Shown piece after piece: positions 44,801 to 63,959 of a stretch of 64,000 nucleotides of DNA. The notes below the pieces were generated by a model, which was not told the origin of the DNA, ran no database searches, and saw nothing but the letters and a program-made list of their open reading frames with translations. The translations under genes and the position numbers were made by a program. Origin of the DNA: a virus; IMG/VR virus record IMGVR_UViG_3300042387_000725, positions 1 through 64,000 of that record; one strand, given 5' to 3'. Within the stretch, counting starts at the first letter, position 1, and each line of letters opens with the position of its first letter.

Positions 44801-46831
44801 TTAATATAGTTTAATCTCACATGCATCTGTGCTGCAATATGCTTCACCCTGTGCTTCAAGATTTTCAACTCCATCATAAATAGCAGACCAGTCAATCTTA
44901 CCAATTATTCCAACATATGCGTTGTATTCTTCTCTTGTGATTTCAGTATAAGGTTGCTGAGGATATGTTTGATTTCCCATTGGAAGGAATGATACTGCTT
45001 TTAGCTGTCCTTCGTACATATGAAGGGCAGGAGCAATAAACTTGGCCTCAGTTTCTTTATCAAATGAAAGTGTCACAGAAACACCATTATCTGACCAGTA
45101 CTTCTGAGCAGTTGCTGCCAAACCAATTTTCTCAAATAGACTAACATTTTTTTCAGCACGTGGGTGACCAGACGCTACTGGGAAATACACTACTTGAGTA
45201 TTTGCTGATACTAAATCTCTTTCAATTTTATATCCCGCTGCTTTAAACAAATGAAGCATTGGATCTTGGTCTCCAAAACGAATAGCACGAAGATAGAATG
45301 CTCCTCCTGGGCCCCAGTGAACCCCTGGAGTTGCACCAGACAGTAGTGATACAGATCCTGATGGCTTAACGGTTGTCACACGAATTGACTCACGAACACA
45401 TAGCCATTCTGAATATTGCTTGTCATAGCTACGAATCTTTTTGTATCCTTCATCCATCCACTCACGAGTTATTGGCAAACCATTTTTATCAGCAAATGAG
45501 GCAATTCCTGTAAGGGATGTACCAATACGACGATTACGCTGCATAATTCCGTTTGTAGTTGGCCAGTGTGTTGGAAGAAGTGTTACAGTCTTTCCGTAAA
45601 GATATGCAAACTTCAATGTCTTAAGAAAGTCTTCCTTAGAATCATGACGATTTAGGTGAACTTCTACAAGAGTACAAAGTTCGTACGATTCCAATGGCTG
45701 CTCTGCACAAGGATTAAAGCCCATTACACGATAGTCTTTTCCGTCTGCAGGATCAGCAAGGCGACCATAATTACGAGCAACATCAAGCCAAATAAAACCT
45801 GGCTCTCCGTTATCTTTAATAAGGTCTACGTAGTCTTCATACTTTGTTCCGACTGTTGCAGAGATAGAGTTATTACTCATCCATGCCCAACCTGGTTTTT
45901 CTGGATCATATGAGTTACGTTCTGGAAATACTTCTGGATTCTTAAGATTAATAAAGTCTTCATCTTCTGGAGTACCAAGTGCTAGTGTTGCAGAACGACG
46001 AACATTTCCAGAAACAACACATGTTCCAATAAGATTAATGATATCTGTAATTGCACGTGAGTCAAGGTTTTCCCCTGCTCTTCCTCCAATTACTTTATCA
46101 ATTCTATTATGTAAATCAATTAGTGGTTGTGGTCCAGATGCTACTCCGCCAAACCCCTTAATTGGTGCACCTAATGGGCGAATCTCAGAATAATCAAACT
46201 TTTGAATATTTTGATTTTGACGAAGGTATGAGTTTAAAAGCATTTTTACTGACTCTACCCAGCCTTCACGAGTATCAGGAATAACATAGGTATTTACAGG
46301 CTCTGTAGGGCTGTAGATAGGCATTTCTTTATCTTGACCTAATGTATCAAACCCTACTCCAATACCCAGCATAAGGGCATCCATAACCCACGAGAACAGG
46401 GCTCCTGGGTCATTGCGGTCAATATCTCTAGTAGATACCATTGCACAGTTTTGAAGGGCTGCAGAGTTACGCTTCTCCATAGTCATAGGAGTTCCAAATG
46501 TCCACATACCACGACCTGGGGGTGTCCACTTTAATTCAAACATTCTTTGAAAGGCTTCTTGTGCTGACTTCTGTGCCTTATTATCATTCCAAGGCAAACG
46601 ATTCTCTTTGGCATGGTTCTTCTGTACTGAGTACATTCCTTCAATTACACGCTTACAAACCTCATGCCATCTTTCTTTTGTTCCATCTTCCTTCACACGG
46701 GAATATGTACGAATAAACGTAATTTCTCCAAGTGAGTTAGATCCTGCATCTTGATATCCAAACGGAGCTGGAAGTGTTGAATATTTATTTACAAAATCTT
46801 CTGTTAAACGAAAAGAAAATATATCTGACAT
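44801..46831 (-). CDS. nrdJ: Class II (B12-dependent) ribonucleotide reductase
   Basis: This 676-residue enzyme reduces ribonucleotides to deoxyribonucleotides using adenosylcobalamin, so it needs no oxygen and no partner subunit. It resembles the monomeric Lactobacillus RTPR type. It has NCAMVSTRD, GTCVVSGNVRRSA, the active-site motif NPCAEQPLESYELC with the thiyl Cys and its partner 11 residues later, and C-terminal YCSTDAC whose two cysteines shuttle electrons. Length and cysteine pattern look intact. It follows a promoter with a 5' hairpin and AAAGG before ATG. Confidence 0.95.
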   Translation of the reverse strand: MSDIFSFRLTEDFVNKYSTLPAPFGYQDAGSNSLGEITFIRTYSRVKEDGTKERWHEVCKRVIEGMYSVQKNHAKENRLPWNDNKAQKSAQEAFQRMFELKWTPPGRGMWTFGTPMTMEKRNSAALQNCAMVSTRDIDRNDPGALFSWVMDALMLGIGVGFDTLGQDKEMPIYSPTEPVNTYVIPDTREGWVESVKMLLNSYLRQNQNIQKFDYSEIRPLGAPIKGFGGVASGPQPLIDLHNRIDKVIGGRAGENLDSRAITDIINLIGTCVVSGNVRRSATLALGTPEDEDFINLKNPEVFPERNSYDPEKPGWAWMSNNSISATVGTKYEDYVDLIKDNGEPGFIWLDVARNYGRLADPADGKDYRVMGFNPCAEQPLESYELCTLVEVHLNRHDSKEDFLKTLKFAYLYGKTVTLLPTHWPTTNGIMQRNRRIGTSLTGIASFADKNGLPITREWMDEGYKKIRSYDKQYSEWLCVRESIRVTTVKPSGSVSLLSGATPGVHWGPGGAFYLRAIRFGDQDPMLHLFKAAGYKIERDLVSANTQVVYFPVASGHPRAEKNVSLFEKIGLAATAQKYWSDNGVSVTLSFDKETEAKFIAPALHMYEGQLKAVSFLPMGNQTYPQQPYTEITREEYNAYVGIIGKIDWSAIYDGVENLEAQGEAYCSTDACEIKLY

Positions 46832-46979: not shown

Positions 46980-47648
46980 TTATCTAAACATTGTATTATT
47001 TATATGGCTAATGTTTATACTATTTACATTAAAATGTTTAGGCAATGATGATACCCACAAAATAGACTGAGCAAGATCATTTGCGGTCAGTGCATCATTT
47101 TTCTTTTCTGCCTGAGTATCAATTGTTCCAGGACATATCTCAGTAATCTTAATGCCATATGCTGGAAACTCTAGTCTCATTGTTTCCAATAATCCAATTT
47201 CTCCCCTTTTAGCATTTGTATAGTTACCGCCACCAGGATAGGGAACGTTTCCACCTATTGATGTTACAAAAATTATTGTTGGAGAATTTGATCTTTGCAT
47301 ACAAGGTACAAATAGCTGAGAAATATACATTGGGCCAGTTACGTTTATGTCATAAGCTCTTCTAAAGTTTTCTGGAGTTTCATTAATAATTTGTGTTGGC
47401 CCAGCTCCTCCACCTGCATTATTTACTAAAAGATCAAGCGTAATGTCTTTGTATTTTTCAAAGAATAACTCTATGGCTTTTGAGTCTGTTATATCTAGTT
47501 GATAAACCTCAACGTTATCAGATACAAGATCAGATACCTTAGATAGGTCTCTTGAAACAGCAATAACCTTGTAACCATTTTCAGATAGTAGTTTTACTGT
47601 TTCTAGTCCAACGCCCTTGCTTGCCCCAGTTACAATTGCTGTTTTCAA
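46980..47648 (-). CDS. Short-chain dehydrogenase/reductase
   Basis: This 222-residue Rossmann oxidoreductase has all the classical SDR signatures: the nucleotide-binding TGASKGVG (7-14), NNAGG (76-80), the catalytic Ser130, and Y143-x3-K147 (YTNAK). Substrate is unknown; SDRs act on sugars, lipids and steroids. Translation must start at TTG (47648), since an in-frame TAA precedes it directly. It is the last gene of the modification island, so it might act on a carbonyl or sugar linked to that pathway, but this is only context. Confidence 0.9.
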   Translation of the reverse strand: MKTAIVTGASKGVGLETVKLLSENGYKVIAVSRDLSKVSDLVSDNVEVYQLDITDSKAIELFFEKYKDITLDLLVNNAGGGAGPTQIINETPENFRRAYDINVTGPMYISQLFVPCMQRSNSPTIIFVTSIGGNVPYPGGGNYTNAKRGEIGLLETMRLEFPAYGIKITEICPGTIDTQAEKKNDALTANDLAQSILWVSSLPKHFNVNSINISHINNTMFR

Positions 47649-48383
47649 TTACATACTCTGATTTTTATTAATGTCCATATTGTTATGAATCCAATGGCCA
47701 GGTATCATATACTTAACCCCAGATTTTACAATATGGGCTGTATGAAAATACGGTGGAAATGCTGGAAATATAATAACACTATTTTCTTTTGGCTTTAGCC
47801 CAAAATCAATTGCTTTATTTTCAACAGATATATCATAGTCTAAATCTACAGCTGGTGCTGATCCTTTAGAAAAACCGTCAGCACTAGTCCATCCTCCATC
47901 ATAATCCTTTAACTGGAAAGATATTTCTCCGCCTTCACAGTCATCATTTAGATACATAACTAGAGAGTATCTTAAAGTTTTGTCTCCATCTAGTTGGTCA
48001 AAATGTGCACCCATTCCCATTCCAGTGTTGTATTTCTTTATATTAAAGGTTGGAAAAAGTCTTGGCTCATCAAAATCACCCAATGAAGAAGCATAGTCCT
48101 TACATACATTGTACATTGTAGTCATGATAGCGTCATATATATATTTGCTTTTTTCCGCTACCTCACCAGTAAGGTTATTTATCGCATTGATGTCAAAAGT
48201 TTTTGTCTCTCCATAAATAAAAGTTTTATCGTTAGAAGAAGTCCAGGGATTCCAAACGTTTACCCCTGACTCTGTGTATTGCTCAAGAGTATCTAACTCT
48301 TTCCATACTTTTTTAAAAGTATCAAAGTCTTCAATAGCATCAGTGTAGTAGTATACTTTTGGGTCTAGTTTTTCTTTATTCAT
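47649..48383 (-). CDS. 2OG-Fe(II) dioxygenase 1 (prolyl 4-hydroxylase-like)
   Basis: This 244-residue double-stranded beta-helix oxygenase uses 2-oxoglutarate, O2 and Fe(II) to hydroxylate a substrate. Its iron triad is intact: H127-x-D129 (GAHFDQ) and H214, with K224 to bind the 2-oxoglutarate carboxylate (SGVKYM). LVMYLNDDCEGGEISF is the strand pattern seen in all seven copies. Substrate unknown. It is the most diverged in length, with an insertion before the distal His. Confidence 0.9.
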   Translation of the reverse strand: MNKEKLDPKVYYYTDAIEDFDTFKKVWKELDTLEQYTESGVNVWNPWTSSNDKTFIYGETKTFDINAINNLTGEVAEKSKYIYDAIMTTMYNVCKDYASSLGDFDEPRLFPTFNIKKYNTGMGMGAHFDQLDGDKTLRYSLVMYLNDDCEGGEISFQLKDYDGGWTSADGFSKGSAPAVDLDYDISVENKAIDFGLKPKENSVIIFPAFPPYFHTAHIVKSGVKYMIPGHWIHNNMDINKNQSM

Positions 48384-48394
48384 ATTTTTCTCCT

Positions 48395-49054
48395 CTAGTA
48401 CTTGTTATTAACGTAAAAATCTTTTACTTTTATAAAGGCTGTAATGACATGTCTTATTGGACCATCCCCCACATGCTTTACTCCATGCTCATGTTCTGGG
48501 TCACCTGGAAAAACAAGCAATGACCCTGGTTTTGGTCTTAACGTGATGTCAAAATTTTTAAAGAAAAGTTCTCCATCAGAATAATTTTCATTAATATATA
48601 GGATTGCAGCATATCTAATAGATGGGTCTGTGTCTTGATCCACATGAGATTTTAATTCAACACCAGTTTGCATTCTTTGTATAGTTCCCATGCCACCTAC
48701 TATTAAATTTTCATCTGCTCTTTTAACTAAATCTTGTATTCTTTCTTGAAGTACTCTAGCTATATCATATTGCTGAATTTCAAGAATTTTATCATCCCAT
48801 CCTTTAGTAACTTCATATTTGCCTTCATCAACTAGCTTTTGAACATCCGTTGTACCAAATTTTTCTAAACAAAACTCAGCCAAACTTTTCTGATAAGCAA
48901 CGTGCCACTCTGTTTCTTCTGTGGAGTTAATTATGTCTAATACTTGATGCAGTTCTTCTTTAGAGATAAAATCTTCTACTAGCAAAATGCTATCTGAAAT
49001 ATCTACAACGCTATAGTTGTCCTCAATAAGTTCTTTTCTTAAGAAACTACTCAT
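48395..49054 (-). CDS. 2OG-Fe(II) dioxygenase 2
   Basis: This 219-residue protein has HVD at 137-139 and a distal His at about 190 in the run EHEHG, with R201 as the likely 2-oxoglutarate ligand. Facial triad and fold signature (AAILYINENYSDGELFF, RPKPGSLLVFPGD) are complete. It overlaps the third dioxygenase gene by 8 bp. Compared with its neighbours the distal region is slightly rearranged (VGDGPIRHV). Substrate unknown. Confidence 0.88.
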   Translation of the reverse strand: MSSFLRKELIEDNYSVVDISDSILLVEDFISKEELHQVLDIINSTEETEWHVAYQKSLAEFCLEKFGTTDVQKLVDEGKYEVTKGWDDKILEIQQYDIARVLQERIQDLVKRADENLIVGGMGTIQRMQTGVELKSHVDQDTDPSIRYAAILYINENYSDGELFFKNFDITLRPKPGSLLVFPGDPEHEHGVKHVGDGPIRHVITAFIKVKDFYVNNKY

Positions 49055-49805
49055 TGCGATTTAACTCCTCTATCTTATACTTATTACCATCTTTATCTAT
49101 TTTATAGCCCTTTTTAATAAGGTCCTGCCACTCTGCTCTTTCAATCTCTTGCTGTTCTCTTGTTGCTTTCATTTCTGCTGCCCAAGCATCTCTTAGCTCT
49201 TGCGGATAAGCATCTTCTTCTCTGTCATCCCAGAATGAACCTATGGTGTATCTTACTCCGCTTTCAATTAAAGTAACTTCATGCATATTGTTAAAGCCAC
49301 CGTCAAAGACAGCAAGCATTCCAACTTTTGGCTCAATTTCTATTTCTTGTCCTGGGAATCTTAATAGTCCACCTTTAAAATTATCATTTAGATAAAGGAA
49401 CCCAGCATATCTACTTCTTGTAAATGCGCCAGAGTTTCCTTCAGCATCAGTATTGTCTGAGTGTACTCTTGCGTATGCTCCAGGTTCCCATTTTTGTGTG
49501 TGATATCCAATTTTACAAATTGTTTTTGGATCAAGATCGTGAACTGAAGCAATTGCTTCTGGCATTGTTTTTTCAATGTCTGAAAAAATAGTTGGAGATA
49601 ATCCAGCATCAAGTACCTCTTGATCGTTATCTTGTGGAAGAACAGAAGAATATGATTCATAAAATGAAATAGGCATCCATGACAACTTTCCACCTTCTGC
49701 TTGAGCATCAAGTGCCTGAATCATTTTTTTACAATCTTCATCACTAATAAAGTTTTCATAAATAACAATATCTTTTGTGATTCTTTTTTTATTGTTTAGA
49801 TTCAT
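49047..49805 (-). CDS. 2OG-Fe(II) dioxygenase 3
   Basis: This 252-residue protein shows H115-x-D117 (ARVHSDN), H175 (NMHEV) and R185 (SGVRYT). FLYLNDNFKGGLLRFPG matches the prolyl-hydroxylase-like strand block. The last 45 residues are a charged helix (EMKATREQQEIERAEWQDLIKKG) absent from the others and perhaps a partner-binding tail. ATGA overlap couples it to the next copy. Confidence 0.9.
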   Translation of the reverse strand: MNLNNKKRITKDIVIYENFISDEDCKKMIQALDAQAEGGKLSWMPISFYESYSSVLPQDNDQEVLDAGLSPTIFSDIEKTMPEAIASVHDLDPKTICKIGYHTQKWEPGAYARVHSDNTDAEGNSGAFTRSRYAGFLYLNDNFKGGLLRFPGQEIEIEPKVGMLAVFDGGFNNMHEVTLIESGVRYTIGSFWDDREEDAYPQELRDAWAAEMKATREQQEIERAEWQDLIKKGYKIDKDGNKYKIEELNRNE

Positions 49806-50668
49806 TTTATCCTTCTTTCTTTGTCAGCGCTAATTTTATTTGGATTATCTAGTCTAAATTCTTCTATAATAGATGGTTGCATTTCTGCCCAAACTTCTTT
49901 ACCAAACTCTTTTTCTTTTTCAAACCACTCAGGACTGCCTACAGAATATTTCATCCAATACATTCTAGAAAGATACTTGTTTGCTCCCGTTGCAGGCATT
50001 ACGCCATGTATGTAAACAGATCCATTTTTTGTTAATACATCTGGGTGACCTGATGGGAAAATCAAAAAATCTCCAGCCTTTGGCTTATACATGTATGCTT
50101 CACCATCAACAATAAAGTCTATCTCTCCACCTTCATAGTCGTCATTAAAATAACAAAGAGCAGTTATTGCAAACTTATACCCTGGACTTGTTATTGGCTC
50201 ACGAATATAATCAGAATGATAGGTCATTGCTAGTGGGTCTTCAATATCTGTTTTATATCTTGCTATAGATGGTCCAGTCATTTGCCATTCTTCCATAAGT
50301 TGACCATTATTTGCTAATACCGTTTTTGTTTTGTCAAGTTCTATACCATTACGTAAAGCATAGTCTTCAGTAGCTAAATAAAAATTTTTAAAAAGTTCAA
50401 GGATTGCAAGCTTTTGAAGTTCTTGTTTTTCTGTTTTTGTTTCTATTTCCTCAATTAAGTCAATTCTTAAATTAGATTGGTAACCCTTAAACATAGGACT
50501 TAAATATTCTCCGAAATGAGCCCATTGAGTCCATGGACTAAAAATACCATCTTCTTCTCCTGTAGAATTTTTTAACAACTCATAGGTTTGTTCTATATTC
50601 TTAAAAAGATTTTTATATACAAATATTTTAGGATATATTTCAATGGCTTCTAAAGTATTTTGACTCAT
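49802..50668 (-). CDS. 2OG-Fe(II) dioxygenase 4
   Basis: From the ATG at 50668 (ATGA overlap with the upstream gene) this encodes 288 residues, the longest copy. H151-x-D153 (TYHSDYI), H221 (YIHGV) and K231 form the active site. CYFNDDYEGGEIDF is nearly the consensus of the family. An extra N-terminal half, with TKTEKQELQKLAILELFKNFYLATEDYAL, may form a substrate cover. A longer frame begins upstream at 50716 but overlaps the neighbour by 52 bp. Confidence 0.9.
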   Translation of the reverse strand: MSQNTLEAIEIYPKIFVYKNLFKNIEQTYELLKNSTGEEDGIFSPWTQWAHFGEYLSPMFKGYQSNLRIDLIEEIETKTEKQELQKLAILELFKNFYLATEDYALRNGIELDKTKTVLANNGQLMEEWQMTGPSIARYKTDIEDPLAMTYHSDYIREPITSPGYKFAITALCYFNDDYEGGEIDFIVDGEAYMYKPKAGDFLIFPSGHPDVLTKNGSVYIHGVMPATGANKYLSRMYWMKYSVGSPEWFEKEKEFGKEVWAEMQPSIIEEFRLDNPNKISADKERRIK

Positions 50669-51345
50669 GGCTTTCTGTCTCCTGTATGTGCCGTAATTTC
50701 CCAAAAAAATGGACATGTAAATCTTAATCCACTTTTTATTTCACTTACTCCATGGATATAGTTTTTATCTCCTGGGAAAAAATAAGCAGCACCTTTCTTA
50801 GGTTTAAATTGCACACCTTGCAGAGGAAAATATAATTCTCCCCCTTCATAATCATCATTTAAATAAAACAAACTTGAAAGATCATAGTTTGGAAAATCAT
50901 TTGGAAGTCCAGCATCTGGTCCTTCATGAAGTTCTTTGTCTGCATGAGGCTTTTGAAATTGCCCTGGAAGCCATTTAACAATTGTAGTTCCAGTTGGTAC
51001 AACTTCTACCTTATAAAAATCTTCAACAATTGGTTTTAGTCTTTGAAATAAACCAGCTATAACTGGGGCAATTCTAGGATCATTTTTGTCAAGACTAGGA
51101 GTTGTTGCTACTCTATCTTTCCAGTAGTCTGAGTCATATACAACAGTGCCGTTTTCATTTACATGGCTTTGTGTTACATCCCAGATAGTTAGAGATTTTG
51201 CTGCTTTTTCTAAAAACTCAATCTCTTCTTCAGTCATGAAGTTTTCTAGCTCTACAATCATGTCTTTGCTGTCTCCAAACCATCCAGATGGGGTTATTGA
51301 CGGAGATCTTTTTACTACTGTATATTCATCTTTGTTTTGTTCCAT
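50665..51345 (-). CDS. 2OG-Fe(II) dioxygenase 5
   Basis: This 226-residue protein has H134-x-D136 (KPHADKE), H198 (YIHGVSEIKSG) and R208. YLNDDYEGGELYFP and PKKGAAYFFPGD are classic for phage prolyl-hydroxylase-like enzymes. Its own promoter lies 6 nt before the ATG, so it can start a transcript for copies 5 to 1. Confidence 0.92.
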   Translation of the reverse strand: MEQNKDEYTVVKRSPSITPSGWFGDSKDMIVELENFMTEEEIEFLEKAAKSLTIWDVTQSHVNENGTVVYDSDYWKDRVATTPSLDKNDPRIAPVIAGLFQRLKPIVEDFYKVEVVPTGTTIVKWLPGQFQKPHADKELHEGPDAGLPNDFPNYDLSSLFYLNDDYEGGELYFPLQGVQFKPKKGAAYFFPGDKNYIHGVSEIKSGLRFTCPFFWEITAHTGDRKP

Positions 51346-51347
51346 TT

Positions 51348-52070
51348 TTATATTATATCATCCTTCGTATTATCTATTACTCCAAGCTTTATGGTTTTAG
51401 CCTCATGGCTACCCAAAGATTCACCTTTTTCATTTACTGCATTTCTATACCAGTCTGTCCATTTTCCTACCTTGTTAATTTCTTGTGCTGCATCTCCATA
51501 AGATTTATTTGCTGCTTGTTTTTTTCCATCTGGATCCGTGTATTTGTTAATTTGAATAACAGTATTATTTAAGCTTGTTAAAGAGATAGGAATTATTGTT
51601 GCAAGTGGGGTTCCTGCCTTTATTGTTGTAATTTTATTTGCTGCTTTTGCTTTTGCTTTAATTGCTAATGGCAGAGGATTGTCATAAAAAGATGTACTTA
51701 TAACGTTAGACATAGTTTCAAACTCGTCGCTATAATAATTGACTGGATTTATTGTAATAATGCTAAAATTTTCTTCTGTTCTAAAGTATAGACCAGTATC
51801 AAAACTTATTGATGACTGACCTCTTCCAGAATAAGCTCTATCTGGTCCAAAAACTTTTACATTGTCTGGACGCTCACTATTGATCCCATCCCACTCAAAA
51901 CATACATCTTGTTTACAAAAAATACTCCAACCAATTGAATTTGCCTGTGTTACAGGAAAACAATGGTATGCATGTTTTTCTGATGAGACATCCATCCAGT
52001 CTCTCTTAATAGACATAGGAGAAATATCAAATAAAGAGTGTGAGTCTTTTTCAATTATAACATTTATCAT
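51348..52070 (-). CDS. DUF6065-like protein A
   Basis: This 240-residue protein has AYHCFPVTQANSIGWSIFCKQDVCFEWDG, then FSIITINPVNYY and IKAGTPLATIIPI. The last pattern recurs in the other DUF6065-like protein of this cluster, and the two appear to be diverged paralogues. I recall this family (DUF6065) beside dioxygenase genes in phages. No catalytic site is evident. It overlaps its upstream neighbour as TAATG. It may be a partner, substrate carrier or scaffold of the modification system. Confidence 0.6.
   Translation of the reverse strand: MINVIIEKDSHSLFDISPMSIKRDWMDVSSEKHAYHCFPVTQANSIGWSIFCKQDVCFEWDGINSERPDNVKVFGPDRAYSGRGQSSISFDTGLYFRTEENFSIITINPVNYYSDEFETMSNVISTSFYDNPLPLAIKAKAKAANKITTIKAGTPLATIIPISLTSLNNTVIQINKYTDPDGKKQAANKSYGDAAQEINKVGKWTDWYRNAVNEKGESLGSHEAKTIKLGVIDNTKDDII
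51352..51360 (-). promoter_or_regulatory. Leaderless-type extended -10 promoter for dioxygenase 5
   Basis: The minus strand reads TGATATAAT, then ATAAAA, then the ATG at 51345. The 6-nt gap puts the expected transcription start at the A of the start codon. Confidence 0.6.
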
Positions 52071-52726
52071 TAGTCTGCCTCTGCGCTATACATTTCTGGA
52101 GTATGAAACTTTTTACTGTAATCAAGCATTGTAACAATAGAGTACTTGAGTCCAGATGTTACTGGCATTGCCTGATGAGGATACATGTAGTTTGATGGAA
52201 ACACAAAAAGATCTCCTGCTTCTGGCTTAACCTTTAGGTTTTGAAGTCTAAAGAATAACTCTCCACCCTCATAGTCATCATTTGGATATCCTACAAGTGA
52301 TACAGTACAGTTATATGAGAATCCATGATCATGGTGTTCCATAAAGTGCTGTCCTGGACCATACTTAATAAAATTAAATGCTTCCCAATATTTTAGGTTA
52401 TGAATATTGTGCATCTTGCAATAGTCTTCTACTACTGGAGACTTAACATCGTATAGATCTTGCCATAGTGACTGAAGGTTTAAGCTTGTTTCACTTGTAT
52501 CATTTTCAATGTCTGTTTTCTTGAACTTAAAATCATTGCAATCTCTGTAGTCTGGCATTAATTGTTTATATCCAACATAGGCAGGCTGCCAACTGTATCC
52601 AGTCGTATCTCCTACTGGCTTAAGGTTTTCTTCAATTCTTTTAATTACTTCAATTTCTTTTTTAATTACACCTTTGTAACAGAATATTCCATTTCCAAGA
52701 TTTTGTTTTTCTGTCCACGTTTGCAT
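52070..52726 (-). CDS. 2OG-Fe(II) dioxygenase 6
   Basis: This 218-residue protein has H131-x-D133 (MEHHDHG), H184 (MYPHQAM) and K194 (SGLKYS). Together with copy 7 it forms a closer pair: both have FSYNC or PAYNC followed by TVS, and an identical DDYEGGE. This suggests a more recent duplication. Its gene has its own promoter, 55 nt upstream. Confidence 0.92.
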   Translation of the reverse strand: MQTWTEKQNLGNGIFCYKGVIKKEIEVIKRIEENLKPVGDTTGYSWQPAYVGYKQLMPDYRDCNDFKFKKTDIENDTSETSLNLQSLWQDLYDVKSPVVEDYCKMHNIHNLKYWEAFNFIKYGPGQHFMEHHDHGFSYNCTVSLVGYPNDDYEGGELFFRLQNLKVKPEAGDLFVFPSNYMYPHQAMPVTSGLKYSIVTMLDYSKKFHTPEMYSAEAD

Positions 52727-52781
52727 TTATTGCTCCCTCTTTATATTTTTAGACTATATTGCTATCTAACAGTTTACCATA

Positions 52782-52790
52782 TTTATAGCA
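52782..52790 (-). promoter_or_regulatory. Extended -10 promoter before dioxygenase 6
   Basis: The minus strand reads TGCTATAAA in the 74-nt gap between the radical SAM gene and dioxygenase 6. A GAGGGAG ribosome site precedes the ATG at 52726. The rest of the gap shows nothing else. Confidence 0.5.
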
Positions 52791-52800
52791 ATTATATTTA

Positions 52801-53736
52801 TTATTCCTTCCAAACTGCATGAACACAGCTTGTGCAAAAATTTTCATAAGAATTTTTAATCATATTTTTGCGTTCTTGGCTTTCCCATATTTCCTTTATT
52901 GGCTTTTCATTAATATTAGCAAATATTGTTTCAAACTCATAGTCATTGCAGCATAAGAATACATCTCCATTAGCATTTATATGTATCCAATCTTCAGTCC
53001 TACTTCCCATATTATTGCAGCCAATAACCTTGCCCTTTTTATTTATTTTATTTTTCATTATTTTACGAGTATCTAAATTTCCTGCTCTGTCAACTAAAGA
53101 TATATTTGGAAATATTCTAATTTCTGGGAATGACTCTTTCATTTGCTTAAGAGCAATTGCTGTATCTCCAGTATTATCATCTAAATTTATTTCAGGAGCA
53201 TTTTCCAATAACTCTGTATATCTAAGTGAACTTTGGTTAATTCCATTAACTTGCATTGAAATTTTTTCAACAGGAAAATTATCTATAGCGTATCTAATGT
53301 TGTCCATAACTCTTTGGTGCATTTTTTCAGGTTTACCTGTCATTTTTGACCAGGTAGCAGCATCAGCGGAAGGTGTATTAAAGTGGATTAAATCAACTAC
53401 ATCACTATATTCTTTGATAATGTCCATCTTTTCTTTTGTTAATGGAGAACCATTTGTTAGTACAACTGTTCTAACTCCATGCTCTCTAAACAAATCAAGC
53501 ATTTCTTTAAAATGCTCATAAAGCAAAACTTCGTTATAGTGTGCTGTATAAATAAAAGAAAACTGTGGATCTACAAAATCTCCAATACCAGCCTTTAGCT
53601 GTTCAAGAATAGACCTAATTGTTTCAATAGACATGGTTTTTCTACCAATTGCTGGGTTTCCATCATATGCTACAGGACAAAACCAACAACCAAGATTACA
53701 CAAACCATTAGGATCTAATTGAACTAACTTTATCAC
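52801..53736 (-). CDS. Radical SAM/SPASM enzyme
   Basis: This 311-residue enzyme carries the canonical 4Fe-4S motif CNLGCWFC (C13, C17, C20) and a radical SAM barrel with TVVLTNGSPLT. The C-terminus has a SPASM-like cysteine set (GCNN, FLCCND, FCTSC) expected to bind auxiliary Fe-S clusters. SPASM proteins commonly modify peptide or protein side chains, so it could install a C-C or C-S crosslink or epimerise residues in a virion or host protein. It begins with GTG at 53736. It is unusual in phages and here sits among seven dioxygenases. Confidence 0.9.
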   Translation of the reverse strand: MIKLVQLDPNGLCNLGCWFCPVAYDGNPAIGRKTMSIETIRSILEQLKAGIGDFVDPQFSFIYTAHYNEVLLYEHFKEMLDLFREHGVRTVVLTNGSPLTKEKMDIIKEYSDVVDLIHFNTPSADAATWSKMTGKPEKMHQRVMDNIRYAIDNFPVEKISMQVNGINQSSLRYTELLENAPEINLDDNTGDTAIALKQMKESFPEIRIFPNISLVDRAGNLDTRKIMKNKINKKGKVIGCNNMGSRTEDWIHINANGDVFLCCNDYEFETIFANINEKPIKEIWESQERKNMIKNSYENFCTSCVHAVWKE

Positions 53737-53747
53737 ATTGTTACCAT

Positions 53748-54515
53748 CTATCTATATTCTCTTCTTGACCATACTTTATTTTTATATATACCGCCATCTG
53801 GTTGACGATAAAATTTTGAATTATCAACCATATTACCATATATCTCTGATTGATTCAAAATCTCTATATTATGATCCCAGTTTTCTCTTTTAAATGGCAA
53901 AATCTGAAGATACGGAGTTCCTGCTGGAATTGTTCCTTCCCAACCATCTGCAATAAAAAATGGAAAACTTCCAAGAAGATGAACTTTATCTGAATCAACA
54001 ACACCAGTGGTATTTAAAAATGGAAGATCAAATCTATTCATTGGTGTCATGAATAGTGCACTATATCCTTCTGGTAGTTTTAATCCCCAGTCAGCAGACC
54101 ATGCAAAATGATACTTGTAGTATCCATGCGGATGTTCAAACTGTGGCATAGGAGGTCTCTGAGTACAAAAGTCTTGATACTTAGAGTCTTCAATCTTTAC
54201 ATTAATTATACCCTGCGAGTTTTTAAAAAATGTTAAGTCACAAGGGGTTTTAAAAACATATCCAGTTGAAAATGCATCCATGATTGCAGGACATGCTTTC
54301 CATGTTGGAATCTTTCCATAATCATCAGTAGTTCCCTCTTTTGGAAATGGACAAACCTCTTTTGGCGCTTTATAGTATTCCCCATTTGGCATCTTTGCAA
54401 ATCTATCTGCATCTTTGTACCAGTCTGGAATTTCTTTTTGTGTTGGAACAGGAACAGAAATACTTTCTTTATTTAGCCATGGCCTATAAGATTTAAATGT
54501 AGCTATTAGTGACAC
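53748..54515 (-). CDS. DUF6065-like protein B
   Basis: This 255-residue protein (GTG start) has WKACPAIMDAFSTGYVFKTPCDLTFFKN, YSALFMTPMNRFDLPFLNTTGVVDSDKV and IPAGTPYLQILPFKRENW. It shows limited similarity to DUF6065-like protein A, mainly the position and form of AGTP..(I/L)(I/L)P and the segment before it. No catalytic motif is visible. It lies between the radical SAM gene and dioxygenase 7 and overlaps the latter. Confidence 0.6.
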   Translation of the reverse strand: MSLIATFKSYRPWLNKESISVPVPTQKEIPDWYKDADRFAKMPNGEYYKAPKEVCPFPKEGTTDDYGKIPTWKACPAIMDAFSTGYVFKTPCDLTFFKNSQGIINVKIEDSKYQDFCTQRPPMPQFEHPHGYYKYHFAWSADWGLKLPEGYSALFMTPMNRFDLPFLNTTGVVDSDKVHLLGSFPFFIADGWEGTIPAGTPYLQILPFKRENWDHNIEILNQSEIYGNMVDNSKFYRQPDGGIYKNKVWSRREYR

Positions 54516-55243
54516 TACTTATGACCTAGCTCGTTAATATCTGTCATTACCACAACACAGTACTTTGTACCTGACTTCATCGGAAGAGATGCATGCTCAT
54601 AAATATAGTTTGAAGGAAATACTGCTATATCTCCAACTCTTGGTGTATGAACATAGTTGTCTAGTCTTGGGAACTTTATTTCTCCACCTTCGTAATCATC
54701 ATTAATATAGATTACTGCAGATACTGTGCAATTGTAGGCTGGACCATGATCAGCATGAATATTAAAGTGTGTTCCTTCTCCTTCATACTTTACAAAATTA
54801 AATGCTTCATAATAAACAACATTGATTCCCCAGTATGCAGCGTAATCATCAATGCAGTACTTTAATTTTTGATAGATCTCTTCATGAAGATCTAAAAGTT
54901 CTGAGTTTGTTTCATCTCTTGGTCCTAAGTTTTCCTGCTTGTACTTAAAGTCTACACAGTCTCTAGCCTTCTTGATAGGAGTTGTAGAATTAGTTACCTG
55001 AGCTTCTGACCATTTATGTTTTTTGTCACCAGACAGATTTGACTCAAGAATATTTATGTATCTATCAGCATCTGCTTTAGAAAATGTATCATGATATACA
55101 TGCAGGCCTAATCCAAGATTCTCAGCGACAATGCCATCTTTGAGCTGTCGTGGAGGGATTCTGTTTGATGCTGTTTCTGATCTATCTTTAGTAAACCAGT
55201 AGTTTGAGTTTTCATCTTGTACTTGTAAGTTATTATATTCCAT
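54515..55243 (-). CDS. 2OG-Fe(II) dioxygenase 7
   Basis: This 242-residue protein has H163-x-D165 (NIHADHG), H217 (YEHAS) and K227 (SGTKYC) complete. VIYINDDYEGGEIKFP is close to copy 6. A 40-residue N-terminal extension is peculiar to this copy. It is the first dioxygenase gene of the island in transcription order, following the glycosyltransferase gene. Confidence 0.92.
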   Translation of the reverse strand: MEYNNLQVQDENSNYWFTKDRSETASNRIPPRQLKDGIVAENLGLGLHVYHDTFSKADADRYINILESNLSGDKKHKWSEAQVTNSTTPIKKARDCVDFKYKQENLGPRDETNSELLDLHEEIYQKLKYCIDDYAAYWGINVVYYEAFNFVKYEGEGTHFNIHADHGPAYNCTVSAVIYINDDYEGGEIKFPRLDNYVHTPRVGDIAVFPSNYIYEHASLPMKSGTKYCVVVMTDINELGHK

Positions 55244-56042
55244 TTGTTTCTCCCTTTTTTTCTGTTAAATTTAATTGCTTAGCCATATATTTTTTAGTTA
55301 AATACCCAATTAAAGTATTTTCTTGTGGAGTAGAAGACATGCTTGGAATTTCTACCTGATGTCTTTTCCAAGAAGAAGAAAATAAAGATACAGCAACACT
55401 ATTACGTATTAATTTTTTACTATATTCAAAACTTATTGGATCTAAAAAGCTATCTATATGTGAATACCTTATTGGATTAAACACACTCTCTTCTTTGGCA
55501 AAACTTGTTAAATTGTTTTTTTCAATTATTTTTGTAAGTAGCTCTGGACCATTTGCAATTTGATCCTTTTGTGATCCATTTGGTATAAAAACAAAATTAT
55601 CAATTAATTCATTTAAAATCTTTTTATCATTTATATACAAAATACCATTGCCAATTCTTACTGGCTCTTTTGCTGGGTAAGGCTTGTCTATAAGAAATCC
55701 AAAAAGATATGGTTCTGGATCTGGCCACTCATCTTTTAAACAGACGGAATCAGAATCTGTCCAAATAAGATTTGTGTTTTTTAACATATGCAATCTAAAG
55801 AAATCAGCAAACTGTGCATGCCCACCTCCAAAGAGTTCATTATCAAATTTTGTTAGAAATATATCTTTTTCTAATACAATTTCATTGGCATCTTTTTTTA
55901 TGGCACCCTCTGGTACCTCAATAGACATATCATATAAATATATATTTAGTTCATGTCCATGATAAATATATGAATTCCATGAGAGTTGCTGTAACAATGT
56001 TGGTTTATTTCCAAACCACAATGTACCAAACTTTAAACCCAT
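55233..56042 (-). CDS. DXD glycosyltransferase (GT32-like)
   Basis: This 269-residue protein has LKFGTLWFGNKPTLLQQLSWNSYIYHGHELNIYLYD, then QFADFFRLHMLKNTNLIWTDSDSVCL. The last part is the nucleotide-sugar DXD motif with the preceding FADFFRLHML helix typical of GT32/Och1-like and alpha-galactosyl-type enzymes. It would transfer a sugar to a protein, lipid or glycan. The frame starts at TTG upstream, but I chose the ATG at 56042. With a hydroxylase gene next to it, it could glycosylate hydroxylated residues; this is inference. Confidence 0.78.
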   Translation of the reverse strand: MGLKFGTLWFGNKPTLLQQLSWNSYIYHGHELNIYLYDMSIEVPEGAIKKDANEIVLEKDIFLTKFDNELFGGGHAQFADFFRLHMLKNTNLIWTDSDSVCLKDEWPDPEPYLFGFLIDKPYPAKEPVRIGNGILYINDKKILNELIDNFVFIPNGSQKDQIANGPELLTKIIEKNNLTSFAKEESVFNPIRYSHIDSFLDPISFEYSKKLIRNSVAVSLFSSSWKRHQVEIPSMSSTPQENTLIGYLTKKYMAKQLNLTEKKGETNGI

Positions 56043-56070
56043 AAGTTTATGCCCCAATCTTATTTAATCA

Positions 56071-56079
56071 ATCATACCA
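56071..56079 (-). promoter_or_regulatory. Promoter at the head of the modification island
   Basis: The minus strand reads TGGTATGAT, an extended -10 with one mismatch, 28 nt before the ATG of the glycosyltransferase gene, in a gap of only 59 nt. Confidence 0.45.
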
Positions 56080-56101
56080 TATAGTTGATTTATAAGAATA
56101 A

Positions 56102-56383
56102 TTATTTATTTTTTAATGTATTTAGTTCGTCTTCTAGTTTTTCTATTTTTTGCATTAAGATCTTTAAAACTTCTACTGCATAAACAGAAAGAATGTCATA
56201 CCTAAGAGCCATAGGCTTATCTTCTTTATCTAAGATAACCATATACTTTAAAGAGTCTACCTCATTAACCTCTTCTGCTATATATCCTAGTTGCCTAATA
56301 TTTTTAGGATCATTATTATATATCCAGGTTACTGGGTTTAAAGCTTGTATGGCTTTTTCAAAATCAATTTCAGTTGACCCCAT
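56102..56383 (-). CDS. Stand-alone S74 intramolecular-chaperone domain
   Basis: This 93-residue protein matches the core of peptidase S74 (endosialidase-type) tail-fibre chaperone domains: ALNPVTWIYNNDPKNIRQLGYIAEEVNEV, then MALRYDILSVYAVEVLKILMQKIEKLEDELN with its terminal coiled coil. Such domains trimerise and self-cleave from fibres. Here the first strand of the domain (SSARFKHSI) lies in the C-terminus of the preceding gene product, separated by stops, so the domain is split. Confidence 0.8.
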   Translation of the reverse strand: MGSTEIDFEKAIQALNPVTWIYNNDPKNIRQLGYIAEEVNEVDSLKYMVILDKEDKPMALRYDILSVYAVEVLKILMQKIEKLEDELNTLKNK

Positions 56384-56401
56384 GTTATTTAACTACCCCT
56401 T

Positions 56402-57250
56402 TTATGAATTGATGTTTACAACCCTCATTATACTGTGCTTAAACCTCGCAGATGAGTATCCAAATCTTGGGAAGAACGGGAAGAATGGAGGGAAGAACGG
56501 TGGGAAGAACGGTGGGAAGAACGGTGGGAAGAACGGGAAGAAAGGTGGGAAGAACGGTGGGAAGAACGGGAAGAACGGGAAGAAAGGTGGGAAAAATGGA
56601 GGGAAGAACGGGAAGAATGGTGGGAAAAATGGAGGGAAAAATGGTGGAGTTGTTGTAATAGAACCAGAAGCATCTGAAGTTTCAGAATTTCCATTAGCAT
56701 TTGTTGCATAAACTGTGTATGTCTGAGAAGTGCCACCTTCTTGAGCTACTGCAGCGCTTAGAGTTGATCCTGATACTGTTGCTCCCTTAGAATCAGAAGA
56801 TGCCCAAGTATATCCAGTAATCGCAGAACCACCATTTGCTGGGGCAGACCAAGAAACGTTATCTTGATTAACCTGTGTAGTTACAGTTGGTGCTGAAGGT
56901 TTAGCTGGAACTGTTGTTGCAGTAATTGAAGCAGATTCTGACGAAGCAGTAGATGTTCCTGCAGCATTTGTTGCTGTTACTGTAAATGTATAGGCAGTAT
57001 TAGATTGAAGACCAGTTACAGTGACTGGAGAAGTTGCACCAGTACCTGTAAAACCTCCAGGAGATGAGGTAGCTGTAAAAGATGTGGCTGCAGGAGAAAG
57101 TGCTGGTAGAGAGAAAGAAACAGTTGCTGCACCATTATTAAATGCTCGTGCAGTTCCAACATTTGTTGCTGTAACATCTGTTGGAGCTAATGGTTCTAAG
57201 AAGTCATTTGATGCCTGAGACTTCTTACCCGCTTTTTTCCCTGCTGCCAT
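56402..57250 (-). CDS. Fibronectin-III protein with C-terminal PPFF repeats
   Basis: This 282-residue protein begins MAAGKKAGKKSQ and contains two fibronectin type III-like domains (about 20-110: YTFTVTATNAAGTSTAS; about 112-200: TYTVYATNANGNSETSD). Residues 202-261 consist only of Pro and Phe in units PPFF or PFF, with 16 FF pairs. The end is RFGYSSARFKHSIMRVVNINS, whose SSARFKHSI looks like the start of an S74 chaperone domain. It is paralogous to 62901-63959. It is presumably a virion fibre or decoration protein exposed to the host. Confidence 0.8.
   Translation of the reverse strand: MAAGKKAGKKSQASNDFLEPLAPTDVTATNVGTARAFNNGAATVSFSLPALSPAATSFTATSSPGGFTGTGATSPVTVTGLQSNTAYTFTVTATNAAGTSTASSESASITATTVPAKPSAPTVTTQVNQDNVSWSAPANGGSAITGYTWASSDSKGATVSGSTLSAAVAQEGGTSQTYTVYATNANGNSETSDASGSITTTPPFFPPFFPPFFPFFPPFFPPFFPFFPFFPPFFPPFFPFFPPFFPPFFPPFFPPFFPFFPRFGYSSARFKHSIMRVVNINS
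56468..56647 (-). repeat. Tandem repeat coding for (P)PFF units
   Basis: On the plus strand this is about 180 bp of near-perfect 9- and 12-base units such as GGGAAGAACGGT, all purine-rich. The codons are nearly identical between units, which suggests expansion by slippage or recombination, although the reading frame is kept. Confidence 0.9.
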
Positions 57251-57272: not shown

Positions 57273-58652
57273 TTACGCTGTTAAATCGCCGTAGACAACC
57301 CAAGTATTTTCTGCTCTTTTGAAAAGAGTTGCAGATGACCACTGAGTTCTTAGCTTTAATCCTGGTGTTGCATTTACTGTTACTCCTACTGCTCCTGCAA
57401 TTGTAACCTGTCCTGTTCCCGTCTGAAGAATATCTAGTGATGTTCCGATTGGGTATGCAATTGTTGCATTTAGAGGAATTGTTAATGTAAGTGCTGAAGA
57501 GGATCCCATTTCAATTAAATCATCTCTGTGATCCAATGTTGAAAGTGTGTATGAAGCAGTCTTTTGAGTAATAGGTGTTAAAGAGTCTACCTTTAATCCA
57601 AGGCTAGTTGTTACTGTTCCTGCAAAATCAGCGTCGTCTCCGAGTGCTGCAGCAAGTTCATTAAGAGTATTAAGTGCTGCTGGTGCGCTATCAAGAACTG
57701 CATTTACCTGAGCAGTTGCATCTGCAATTGCTTCTGTCTTAGCAGTTTCAATCGCTGTAGCCTGTGCGGTTGACACTGGCTTATCTGCATCTGCTGTGTT
57801 ATCAACATTTCCAAGCCCTACATCCGCTTTTACAATCCCTACTGGAGATGTAATTGTTTTATTTGTTAAAGTTTGTGTTCCAGTTGTTGTAACTAGTATG
57901 CTAGTGTCTGCAATGCCGTGTACGTTTGTTGTATCATCATTGTGTGTTGTAACATATCCAGATGCTGTTGATTCTGCTTCTGATTTAGCAGTTGCAACAT
58001 TTGATGTAGTTGCAAGAACTGAAGTATCTGCAATACCATGAACGTTTGTTGTGTCGTTATTGTGTGTTGTTACTGCTCCATCTGCATATGTCTTTGTTGC
58101 TACTGTGCTATCAATATCAAACTGATCTGTGTCTGCATTCCAGTCAATTCCTGTTCCTGCAAGTTCTGACTGATCAACTGTTGCATTTCCAACTGCAGTT
58201 CCAACATACTCTTCCATACCATCTTGTGTTACGAGAACTGAGGTGTCAGTAATTCCATGAACGTTTGTTGTGTCGTTATTATGTGTTGTTACTGCGCTAT
58301 TTGTAAAAGACTGAGTTGCAAGGTCTGCCGTATTAGCAATTCCGTGAATATCTGTTGTATCAGATTGGTGATTAGATAGGTTTGTTGCTACTGTTGAGAA
58401 AAAGTTTGGATCATCATTTATTGCTGCTGCAAGCTCATTTAGAGTATCAAGTGCTCCTGGTGCTCCAGCAATAAGGTTAGATATTGAGTCACTATCTGAG
58501 AAGTATGAGAGGTCTGACCAGTGGTTAGTTCCATCACCAATCTTAAACTTATTTGTGTCTGTTTCGTATCCAATTTCTGCTACGTTTAGAATTGGATCTG
58601 CAGAGGTCCACTGAGAAGCAGTTCCTCTGCGCTGTTGCATTCTTGTTGCCAT
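57273..58652 (-). CDS. Tail fibre protein with Mtd-N-type start and HNNDTTNVHG repeats
   Basis: The first 55 residues (RRGTASQWTSADPILNVAEIGYETDTNKFKIGDGTNHWSDLSYF) match the N-terminal domain found on many phage fibres (Mtd-like attachment domain). THNNDTTNVHGI(A/T)DTSVL recurs about three times, with shorter variants, and an LNTLNELAAALGDD-type segment occurs twice, as in shaft repeats. The C-terminus (TLTIPLNATIAYPIGTSLDIL) is beta-rich. It is therefore a 459-residue fibre whose distal part may bind receptor. Confidence 0.8.
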   Translation of the reverse strand: MATRMQQRRGTASQWTSADPILNVAEIGYETDTNKFKIGDGTNHWSDLSYFSDSDSISNLIAGAPGALDTLNELAAAINDDPNFFSTVATNLSNHQSDTTDIHGIANTADLATQSFTNSAVTTHNNDTTNVHGITDTSVLVTQDGMEEYVGTAVGNATVDQSELAGTGIDWNADTDQFDIDSTVATKTYADGAVTTHNNDTTNVHGIADTSVLATTSNVATAKSEAESTASGYVTTHNDDTTNVHGIADTSILVTTTGTQTLTNKTITSPVGIVKADVGLGNVDNTADADKPVSTAQATAIETAKTEAIADATAQVNAVLDSAPAALNTLNELAAALGDDADFAGTVTTSLGLKVDSLTPITQKTASYTLSTLDHRDDLIEMGSSSALTLTIPLNATIAYPIGTSLDILQTGTGQVTIAGAVGVTVNATPGLKLRTQWSSATLFKRAENTWVVYGDLTA

Positions 58653-62900: not shown

Positions 62901-63959
62901 TTAGTATCCTCCATATGAGAATCTTGGGAAGAATGGGAAGAACGGCGGAAAGAATGGAGGGAAGAATGGAGGGAAGAACGGCGGAAAGAATGGAGGGAAG
63001 AACGGTGGGAAAAATGGTGGGAAGAATGGAAAGAACGGAAAGAATGGTGGGAAAAATGGTGAGGTAACCACGAGATTAGATGGATCTGAAGTTGGAGAAT
63101 TTCCAATTGCATTTGTAGCATAAACGGTATATGTTTGTGAAGTATTAACTTCTTGATCAACTTCAACTGATAGCGTTGTTCCAGAAACTGTACCAGTCTT
63201 ACCGTCAGAAGATGCCCAGGTGTAACCAGTAATTGTAGATCCACCGTTTGCTGGAGCAATCCAAGAAACGATATCTTTAGATGATCCTGTTGTTACTGTT
63301 GGTGCTGCTGGTTTAGCTGGAACGGATGTGTCTGTAACATAAGGTTCGCTTGCAGAACTAAACAATCCAGATCCATTGGCATTATTTGCACAAATAGTAA
63401 AAGTATAAGATGTTCCTCCATTAAATGCACCAGTGGCAGTTAATGGACTATTTATTCCTGCCTGAGTTGTTATTGATACAGAAGGAGATGAAGCAATGGT
63501 ATAACCTGTTATTTCGCTTCCTCCAGATTCTGGGGGAGTAAATGTTAAGCTTACTACTGTATTGCTAACTTTAGTTGGTACACCAATGGTTGGAGTTCCT
63601 GGAACAGTAGTTGCTAGAATTGAATTAGAACTTATACTTGGTAGATAAGAACTTCCAAGTGAGCTATTTCCTTTTGATGTAAAAGTATATGAAGTATTAG
63701 ACTGTAATCCTGTAATTGTTAATGGTGAAGAACCTGTTGCTGTAAATGATCCTGGATCTGATGTTACCGTATAGCTTGTAGCTGGACCACCTGTTCCTGG
63801 AGCAGCTAAAGAAATAGTAGCAGATCCATCATTAAATGGACGATTTGTACCAACATTTGTTGCAGTTGGAACTGCTCCGTCTGGAAGATCATTTATTGGG
63901 GTAGTGTACTGTATCTTTCTTAATAATAAGCTTAGTAAAGATACTTTTGAAATTGTCAT
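62901..63959 (-). CDS. Fibronectin-III protein with C-terminal PPFF repeats, paralogue
   Basis: This 352-residue protein has three fibronectin type III-like units (about 25-110, 120-210, 215-295: TSYTVTSDPGSFTATG, GGSEITGYTIASSPS, SQTYTVYATNAIGNSPTSD). The third is clearly related to the second unit of the 56402-57250 product (AP.NGGS.ITGYTWASSD). Residues 301-345 are Pro and Phe only, in PPFF/PFF units with 12 FF pairs, then RFSYGGY. No S74 piece follows. It is presumably a virion decoration or fibre part. Confidence 0.78.
   Translation of the reverse strand: MTISKVSLLSLLLRKIQYTTPINDLPDGAVPTATNVGTNRPFNDGSATISLAAPGTGGPATSYTVTSDPGSFTATGSSPLTITGLQSNTSYTFTSKGNSSLGSSYLPSISSNSILATTVPGTPTIGVPTKVSNTVVSLTFTPPESGGSEITGYTIASSPSVSITTQAGINSPLTATGAFNGGTSYTFTICANNANGSGLFSSASEPYVTDTSVPAKPAAPTVTTGSSKDIVSWIAPANGGSTITGYTWASSDGKTGTVSGTTLSVEVDQEVNTSQTYTVYATNAIGNSPTSDPSNLVVTSPFFPPFFPFFPFFPPFFPPFFPPFFPPFFPPFFPPFFPPFFPFFPRFSYGGY
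62925..63059 (-). repeat. Second (P)PFF-coding tandem repeat
   Basis: This 135-bp array of 9- and 12-base purine-rich units (plus strand GGAAGAATGGTG and variants) is the counterpart of 56468-56647. The two arrays differ in unit order, so both have been rearranging independently. Confidence 0.9.

Follow-up and report, generated by a model that had tools for sequence, protein, structure and literature searches.

A Pro/Phe-armed fibre-like protein of a siphovirus and the exchangeable set of putative peptidyl hydroxylases encoded beside it

Our comparison of a phage DNA of 64,000 bases (the window; bases 1-64000 of an 89,155-base IMG/VR virus record) with its relatives showed that a gene for an FN3-type protein with a proline/phenylalanine arm (the PPFF protein), six or seven 2OG-Fe(II) oxygenase genes and two DUF6065-family genes are present or absent as a unit. 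Judged from sequence comparison, this unit is probably a swappable tail-fibre and hydroxylase cassette of siphoviruses, with a probable actinobacterial host, that would hydroxylate the P/F arm of its own fibre.

The Pro/Phe-armed protein and its neighbouring genes

The phage is of freshwater type, and the window carries a siphovirus gene set (terminase, portal, head protease and tape-measure). Because the portal protein is closest to those of Streptomyces phages (45%), the host is likely an actinobacterium. After the PPFF gene, on the same strand, come genes for a glycosyltransferase, oxygenase H, the two DUF6065-family proteins, a radical SAM protein, oxygenases G, F, E, D, C and B, and a short-chain dehydrogenase. 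The features are listed below, together with their frequency among 116 cassettes, defined as loci with six or more oxygenases.

62901..63959, minus strand: second FN3-PPFF protein, with a 45-residue run and the C-terminus FFPRFSYGGY; present in G116 but, like the cassette, missing from empty-site relatives
57273..58652, minus strand: Mtd_N tail fibre, conserved flank on the opposite side of the insertion site
56402..57250, minus strand: PPFF fibre-like protein with FN3-type domains, a 60-residue Pro/Phe arm and the putative start of an S74 chaperone
about 56468..56647, minus strand: uninterrupted (P1-2 FF)n segment of exactly 60 consecutive Pro/Phe residues
56102..56383, minus strand: rest of Peptidase_S74 (endosialidase-type chaperone), encoded by an ORF of its own; PF13884 E 7e-6; PHROG tail-fibre C-termini; split kept in relatives
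55233..56057, minus strand: glycosyltransferase (Gb3_synth-like), not a conserved cassette member; in 2/116 cassettes
54515..55243, minus strand: 2OG-Fe(II) oxygenase H (P4H-like); PF13640; AF2 model pLDDT 88; in 115/116 cassettes
53748..54515, minus strand: DUF6065 relative with a predicted dUTPase-like fold; in 112/116 cassettes
52801..53736, minus strand: radical SAM/SPASM protein; in 2/116 cassettes
52070..52726, minus strand: 2OG-Fe(II) oxygenase G; in 116/116 cassettes
51348..52070, minus strand: DUF6065 protein; PF19541 E 7e-25; in 116/116 cassettes
50665..51345, minus strand: 2OG-Fe(II) oxygenase F; in 116/116 cassettes
49802..50716, minus strand: 2OG-Fe(II) oxygenase E; in 70/116 cassettes
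49047..49805, minus strand: 2OG-Fe(II) oxygenase D; in 114/116 cassettes
48395..49054, minus strand: 2OG-Fe(II) oxygenase C; in 109/116 cassettes
47649..48383, minus strand: 2OG-Fe(II) oxygenase B; in 108/116 cassettes
46980..47648, minus strand: short-chain dehydrogenase at the far end of the cassette; PF00106 E 2e-41; in 67/116 cassettes
44801..46831, minus strand: B12-dependent ribonucleotide reductase, conserved flank of the insertion site

The PPFF gene begins with ATG, has AGGAG a few bases upstream, and encodes a product of 282 amino acid residues with a Pfam fn3 domain (E 2.8e-9). The original prediction had this product end in 60 residues made only of Pro and Phe; the length of the run was exact, but it is followed by 21 more residues (RFGYSSARFKHSIMRVVNINS), which resemble the beginning of a Peptidase_S74 chaperone. 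The putative fibre-type domains (FN3 and the S74 chaperone) and the position of the gene among fibre genes are those of a phage tail fibre. The arm, consisting of P and F only, does not have the Gly-X-Y repeats of collagen-like proteins.

Relatives of the PPFF protein are abundant in IMG/VR (at least 373 matches). Of the 3100 inner Phe runs counted in 219 distinct PPFF proteins, all but one (3099) have a length of exactly two, and the Pro runs are of length one (1173), two (1752) or, in seven cases, longer. No P/F run of ten or more letters was found in 120 random viral stretches. Because of this strict grammar and this absence, the run is not a product of chance. The arms also differ in codon usage, Phe being encoded by TTC in 90% of cases versus 13% in nine other genes of the window (TTT 87%), perhaps reflecting avoidance of poly-T slippage. 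P/F runs are present in several apparently unrelated proteins. A tblastn search of cultured phages with the PPFF protein gave no match, low-complexity masking leaving only the FN3 part as the query.

The C-terminal regions of the relatives vary. A Hint-like (intein/hedgehog-type) region follows the arm in place of S74 in L012 and L019 (weak Hint_2 matches) and, as judged by eye, in L005, L006 and L029, and the PPFF proteins of some other relatives end in Cys-rich tails. Other low-complexity aromatic tails in the same FN3 family, such as YNFYNFYN, FSFTPYSFVP and FGFSPFGF (L077, L039, L020, L045, L060 and L418), are found without hydroxylase arrays.

The S74 intramolecular chaperone is encoded in two pieces in the window (56102-56440) and also in L042, L075, L173/L248, L236, L374, L377 and L144. 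In the first piece, the PPFF proteins end in ...YSSxRFKxSIxxVxxI, which includes the Ser and Lys from the catalytic motif of S74, and then stop; in the second, the remaining approximately 90 residues form a separate intact ORF with 67-85% identity. This arrangement is seen in about seven distinct loci, and the frame relation varies among them, which suggests that the chaperone works as two separately made pieces. Because of this variation, with in-frame stops in the window and other frames in L042 and L075, a programmed frameshift or readthrough that fuses both pieces is unlikely.

The original prediction counted seven prolyl-4-hydroxylase-like enzymes near the PPFF gene, and the count was right (47649-55243), the product of 46980-47648 being a short-chain dehydrogenase instead. 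PF13640 was matched above the curated cut-off in all seven, although PF13640 alone does not define prolyl hydroxylases. Nine PF13640 matches were obtained in the whole 89-kb record, including six cassette enzymes; enzyme E, which completes the seven of the cassette, was matched in a separate Pfam search. The three genes outside the cassette (G000:69085-69339, 85199-85453 and 86558-86791) lie past the end of the window and, with the seven in the cassette, give a total of ten oxygenases in the record. Each of the seven classes has 74-169 members, nearly all of which keep the HxD...H iron triad and the distal Lys/Arg for 2OG, so that the active sites of the oxygenases are intact. Only enzyme H was folded (pLDDT 88), and the top Foldseek matches of its model were PHD2 with HIF peptides, algal P4H with (Ser-Pro)5, PBCV-1 P4H and EF-Tu P4H, so that the predicted fold is closest to those of prolyl hydroxylases. 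B. anthracis P4H, LH3 and P3H1 are sequence neighbours of H and F. In the G116 cassette, enzyme E was not found, and a JmjC_2/cupin protein, from another 2OG-oxygenase family, is present (L411:2-580).

The two DUF6065-family proteins are homologous to each other (hhalign E 3e-18), and the structural model predicted for the 53748-54515 product is similar to dUTPase/dCTP deaminase (VIA Z about 10). Almost every PPFF cassette encodes both proteins, which are found close to other low-complexity fibres as well. We found no report on DUF6065 in the open-access literature searched, outside which most subscription journals lie. The glycosyltransferase and the radical SAM protein were rejected as core members of the cassette, each being present in 2/116.

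Presence and absence of the arm and the oxygenases in related phages

In the empty-site relatives, the ribonucleotide reductase gene joins the Mtd_N fibre gene directly, and the whole block 46980-57250 is missing. The second PPFF gene, 6 kb away, is likewise missing from these relatives, and in both the window and G116 it accompanies the enzymes. Among the structural proteins, the PPFF protein alone is present or absent together with the enzymes. G110 and G111 have FN3 proteins with Gly-rich ends near the insertion site, and other gene sets occupy the same site in some relatives (G126, G128 and L326).

It had been proposed that PPFF-protein genes and dioxygenase clusters be checked for co-occurrence across related phages, and in the hundreds of uncultured phages compared the arms and the PF13640 arrays were mostly present or absent together. 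We first consider 33 relatives that were picked by their portal protein, blind to both traits. The PPFF arm was found in 5/33, each with 5-7 PF13640 genes; of the 28 without the arm, 26 have no PF13640 gene, one has one and G126 has four (Fisher 2.5e-5, a value that overstates independence because the PPFF gene adjoins the enzymes, so that one recombination moves both, and because each tree holds four independent contrasts). The FN3 protein of the exceptional G126 has a PPPF-repeat arm (FPPPFPPPFPPP). PPPF-repeat phage proteins elsewhere also have one to four of the enzymes alongside, except on fragments cut near the repeat.

Other samples gave a similar picture. Within one FN3 family, the P/F-tailed records have a mean of 5.4 PF13640 genes, with three or more enzymes in 28/36, in contrast to a mean of 0.8, with three or more enzymes in 0/14, for records with other aromatic tails (FSFTP, FGFSP and YNFYN). 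Orthologues of enzyme H are accompanied by a P/F run in 52/52 loci of at least 9 kb, the seven misses being shorter fragments. Records found solely by the PPFF DNA pattern contain PF13640 in 46/50 cases, mostly in 6-11 copies. When PPFF-pattern loci of at least 9 kb were compared with random viral contigs, which were collected with a 14-mer probe after a 16-mer probe gave just two contigs, at least one PF13640 gene was present in 51/62 versus 0/62.

Six changes in the portal tree are required to account for the six PPFF phages, and at least four of these are forced by well-supported branches. The enzymes track the arm in 4/4 independent pairs in this tree (sign test P = 0.125), and in the FN3 tree 2.9 of 4 independent contrasts have the same direction (P = 0.25). 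Note that ORFs truncated by contig ends probably account for three rows of the FN3 tree with enzymes and no P/F tail (L267, L268 and L272). The portal proteins of the PPFF-array records are 52-85% identical to that of the window, and several large records (G056, G068, G072 and G084) have no related portal; the association of the arm and the enzymes is therefore not confined to one close clade.

The association is not complete. In other phages, long fibres with PPFF linkers are encoded on fragments of 28-38 kb that lack any PF13640 gene (G055, G085, G091 and G095), and G064 has a PPFF segment inside a long fibre and one PF13640 gene; these five records are incomplete. G065 (88 kb), which is perhaps complete, encodes a separate, different PPFF protein of 377 residues and one enzyme. 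A dependence of the enzyme number on arm length or on the share of single Pro was rejected (Spearman 0.10 and 0.11). Matches to PPFF in bacterial genome contigs (n = 17) were mostly antisense or short artefacts. Real PPFF proteins were found in MAG contigs of Verrucomicrobiales, Gammaproteobacteria and Chitinophagaceae (L360, L364/L371 and L372), with P4H-like genes beside L360, L364 and L372, and these contigs may be binned phage.

Possible targets of the oxygenases

The proposed role of the PPFF protein as a candidate substrate of the neighbouring enzymes has strong support in the comparative data: the co-occurrence, the joint presence or absence at one site, the intact active sites and the predicted peptidyl-prolyl-hydroxylase fold. 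During infection, before or during virion assembly, the P/F arm would be hydroxylated by the oxygenases, with proline as the most likely target residue. The enzymes may divide the positions among them, each acting on the lone P, on one or the other P of a PP pair or perhaps on Phe. Such modification could make the very hydrophobic arm soluble and stiff (polyproline-II-like), or could give it a hydrogen-bonding or binding surface. On the virion, the modified arm might serve as an adhesin or receptor-binding element or as a spacer, replacing the Gly-rich arms of the empty-site relatives. The chances seem to us evenly balanced that tailed phages possess, in this form, a swappable assembly line, in which six or seven dedicated peptidyl hydroxylases would oxidise successive positions of a near two-letter (P1-2 FF) arm to give a polymer virion surface that replaces other adhesive arms.

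Alternatively, the oxygenases may ride with the adjoining fibre gene in an exchangeable host-range block, their true target being another fibre, a host protein or a small molecule. Bacterial P4Hs are known to hydroxylate EF-Tu, and the model of enzyme H also resembles the EF-Tu-modifying P4H; moreover, the main PPFF gene and the enzymes adjoin and are inserted at one site, and some phages have PPFF segments with no or one enzyme. However, same-site or same-family relatives with other arms (Gly-rich or FSFTP-like) have only 0-2 enzymes, no other structural protein tracks the enzymes, the second PPFF gene tracks them from a distance of 6 kb, and the PPPF-repeat proteins adjoin them as well, so we regard such hitchhiking as unlikely.

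It is rather improbable that the arm-directed oxidation has Phe, FN3-domain residues or a mixture of these with Pro as its main target. Phe makes up half of the arm and is strictly paired, and a single proline position would not call for so many distinct enzymes, but the nearest folds and sequences are those of peptidyl Pro or Lys hydroxylases, and the Pro-rich, Phe-poor PPPF arms keep the enzymes.

The original prediction also included a plant-like route, in which the neighbouring glycosyltransferase, whose gene sits between the PPFF gene and enzyme H in the window, would O-glycosylate Hyp after the hydroxylation step. This route is very improbable and is unsupported as a general step: homologues of this glycosyltransferase are present in 2/116 cassettes, with no other glycosyltransferase group common there, whereas plant and algal hydroxyproline-rich glycoproteins would be marked by a Hyp glycosyltransferase conserved with its substrate. 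Glycosylation could take place in this phage alone, or by host enzymes. Finally, a neutral DNA repeat expansion without function, which would fit the tandem 12/21/33-bp periodicity of the arm DNA, is scarcely credible in view of the near-invariant grammar of the 219 proteins despite third-base variation, the presence of P/F runs in several apparently unrelated proteins and the linkage to the enzymes.

Comparison with known systems

Among the puzzling genes of aquatic phages, those for 2OG-Fe(II) oxygenases rank with the most common. Here, one abundant group of these enzymes is linked, through gain and loss, to a single named structural protein of very simple sequence, which makes the question of the substrate testable. 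If hydroxylation of the arm as we propose is true, a phage virion surface would be made by dedicated multi-enzyme protein hydroxylation, and the enzymes would constitute a new peptide-oxidising toolkit.

In Mimivirus, collagen is hydroxylated and glycosylated by virus-encoded enzymes. In the present system, the virus would likewise encode both the tailoring enzymes and their substrate, a repetitive structural protein, if the PPFF protein has that role, but Gly-X-Y collagen and lysine are involved in Mimivirus and a Pro/Phe arm here, without a conserved glycosyltransferase. Extensin-type proteins of plants and algae and their P4H (3gze, algal P4H with (Ser-Pro)5) share with it a low-complexity Pro-rich extracellular protein and P4H-fold enzymes; unlike them, the PPFF arm is half Phe, has no Ser or Tyr, and has no conserved glycosyltransferase. 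Collagen-like phage tail fibres (PMC3368898) also have a low-complexity repetitive arm, although it forms a GXY triple helix, and hydroxylase cassettes of the present kind are not described for them in the text consulted.

2OG-Fe(II) oxygenase genes are common in cyanophages (PMC3037559; PMC12774648), and are discussed in the former paper under nitrogen metabolism and 2-oxoglutarate. T4-like cyanophages (PMC3037559) resemble the present phage in having several PF13640-type genes per genome with no agreed substrate; their oxygenases are distant from the cassette enzymes, however, with under 45% identity and partial coverage, and no FN3-PPFF protein was found in the collection holding these phages.

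Cyanophage 2OG-Fe(II) genes, and viral prolyl hydroxylases with viral Pro-rich proteins in chloroviruses, are already known, whereas neither PPFF (FFPPFF) arms nor fibre-hydroxylase cassettes in phages were reported in the open-access literature searched, which leaves out most subscription journals. The viral use of prolyl 4-hydroxylase is called cryptic in one survey (PMC9301287), which also cites the prolyl 4-hydroxylase of chlorovirus PBCV-1, with viral Pro-rich proteins as its supposed substrates (Eriksson 1999, cited in PMC9301287). This enzyme (vCPH, PDB 5c5t) is, like the putative cassette enzymes, a viral 2OG-Fe(II) peptidyl prolyl hydroxylase, with the fold that is predicted for enzyme H. 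PBCV-1 is an algal virus with one such enzyme, whereas six or seven distinct enzymes accompany a (P1-2 FF)n arm in the tailed phage described here.
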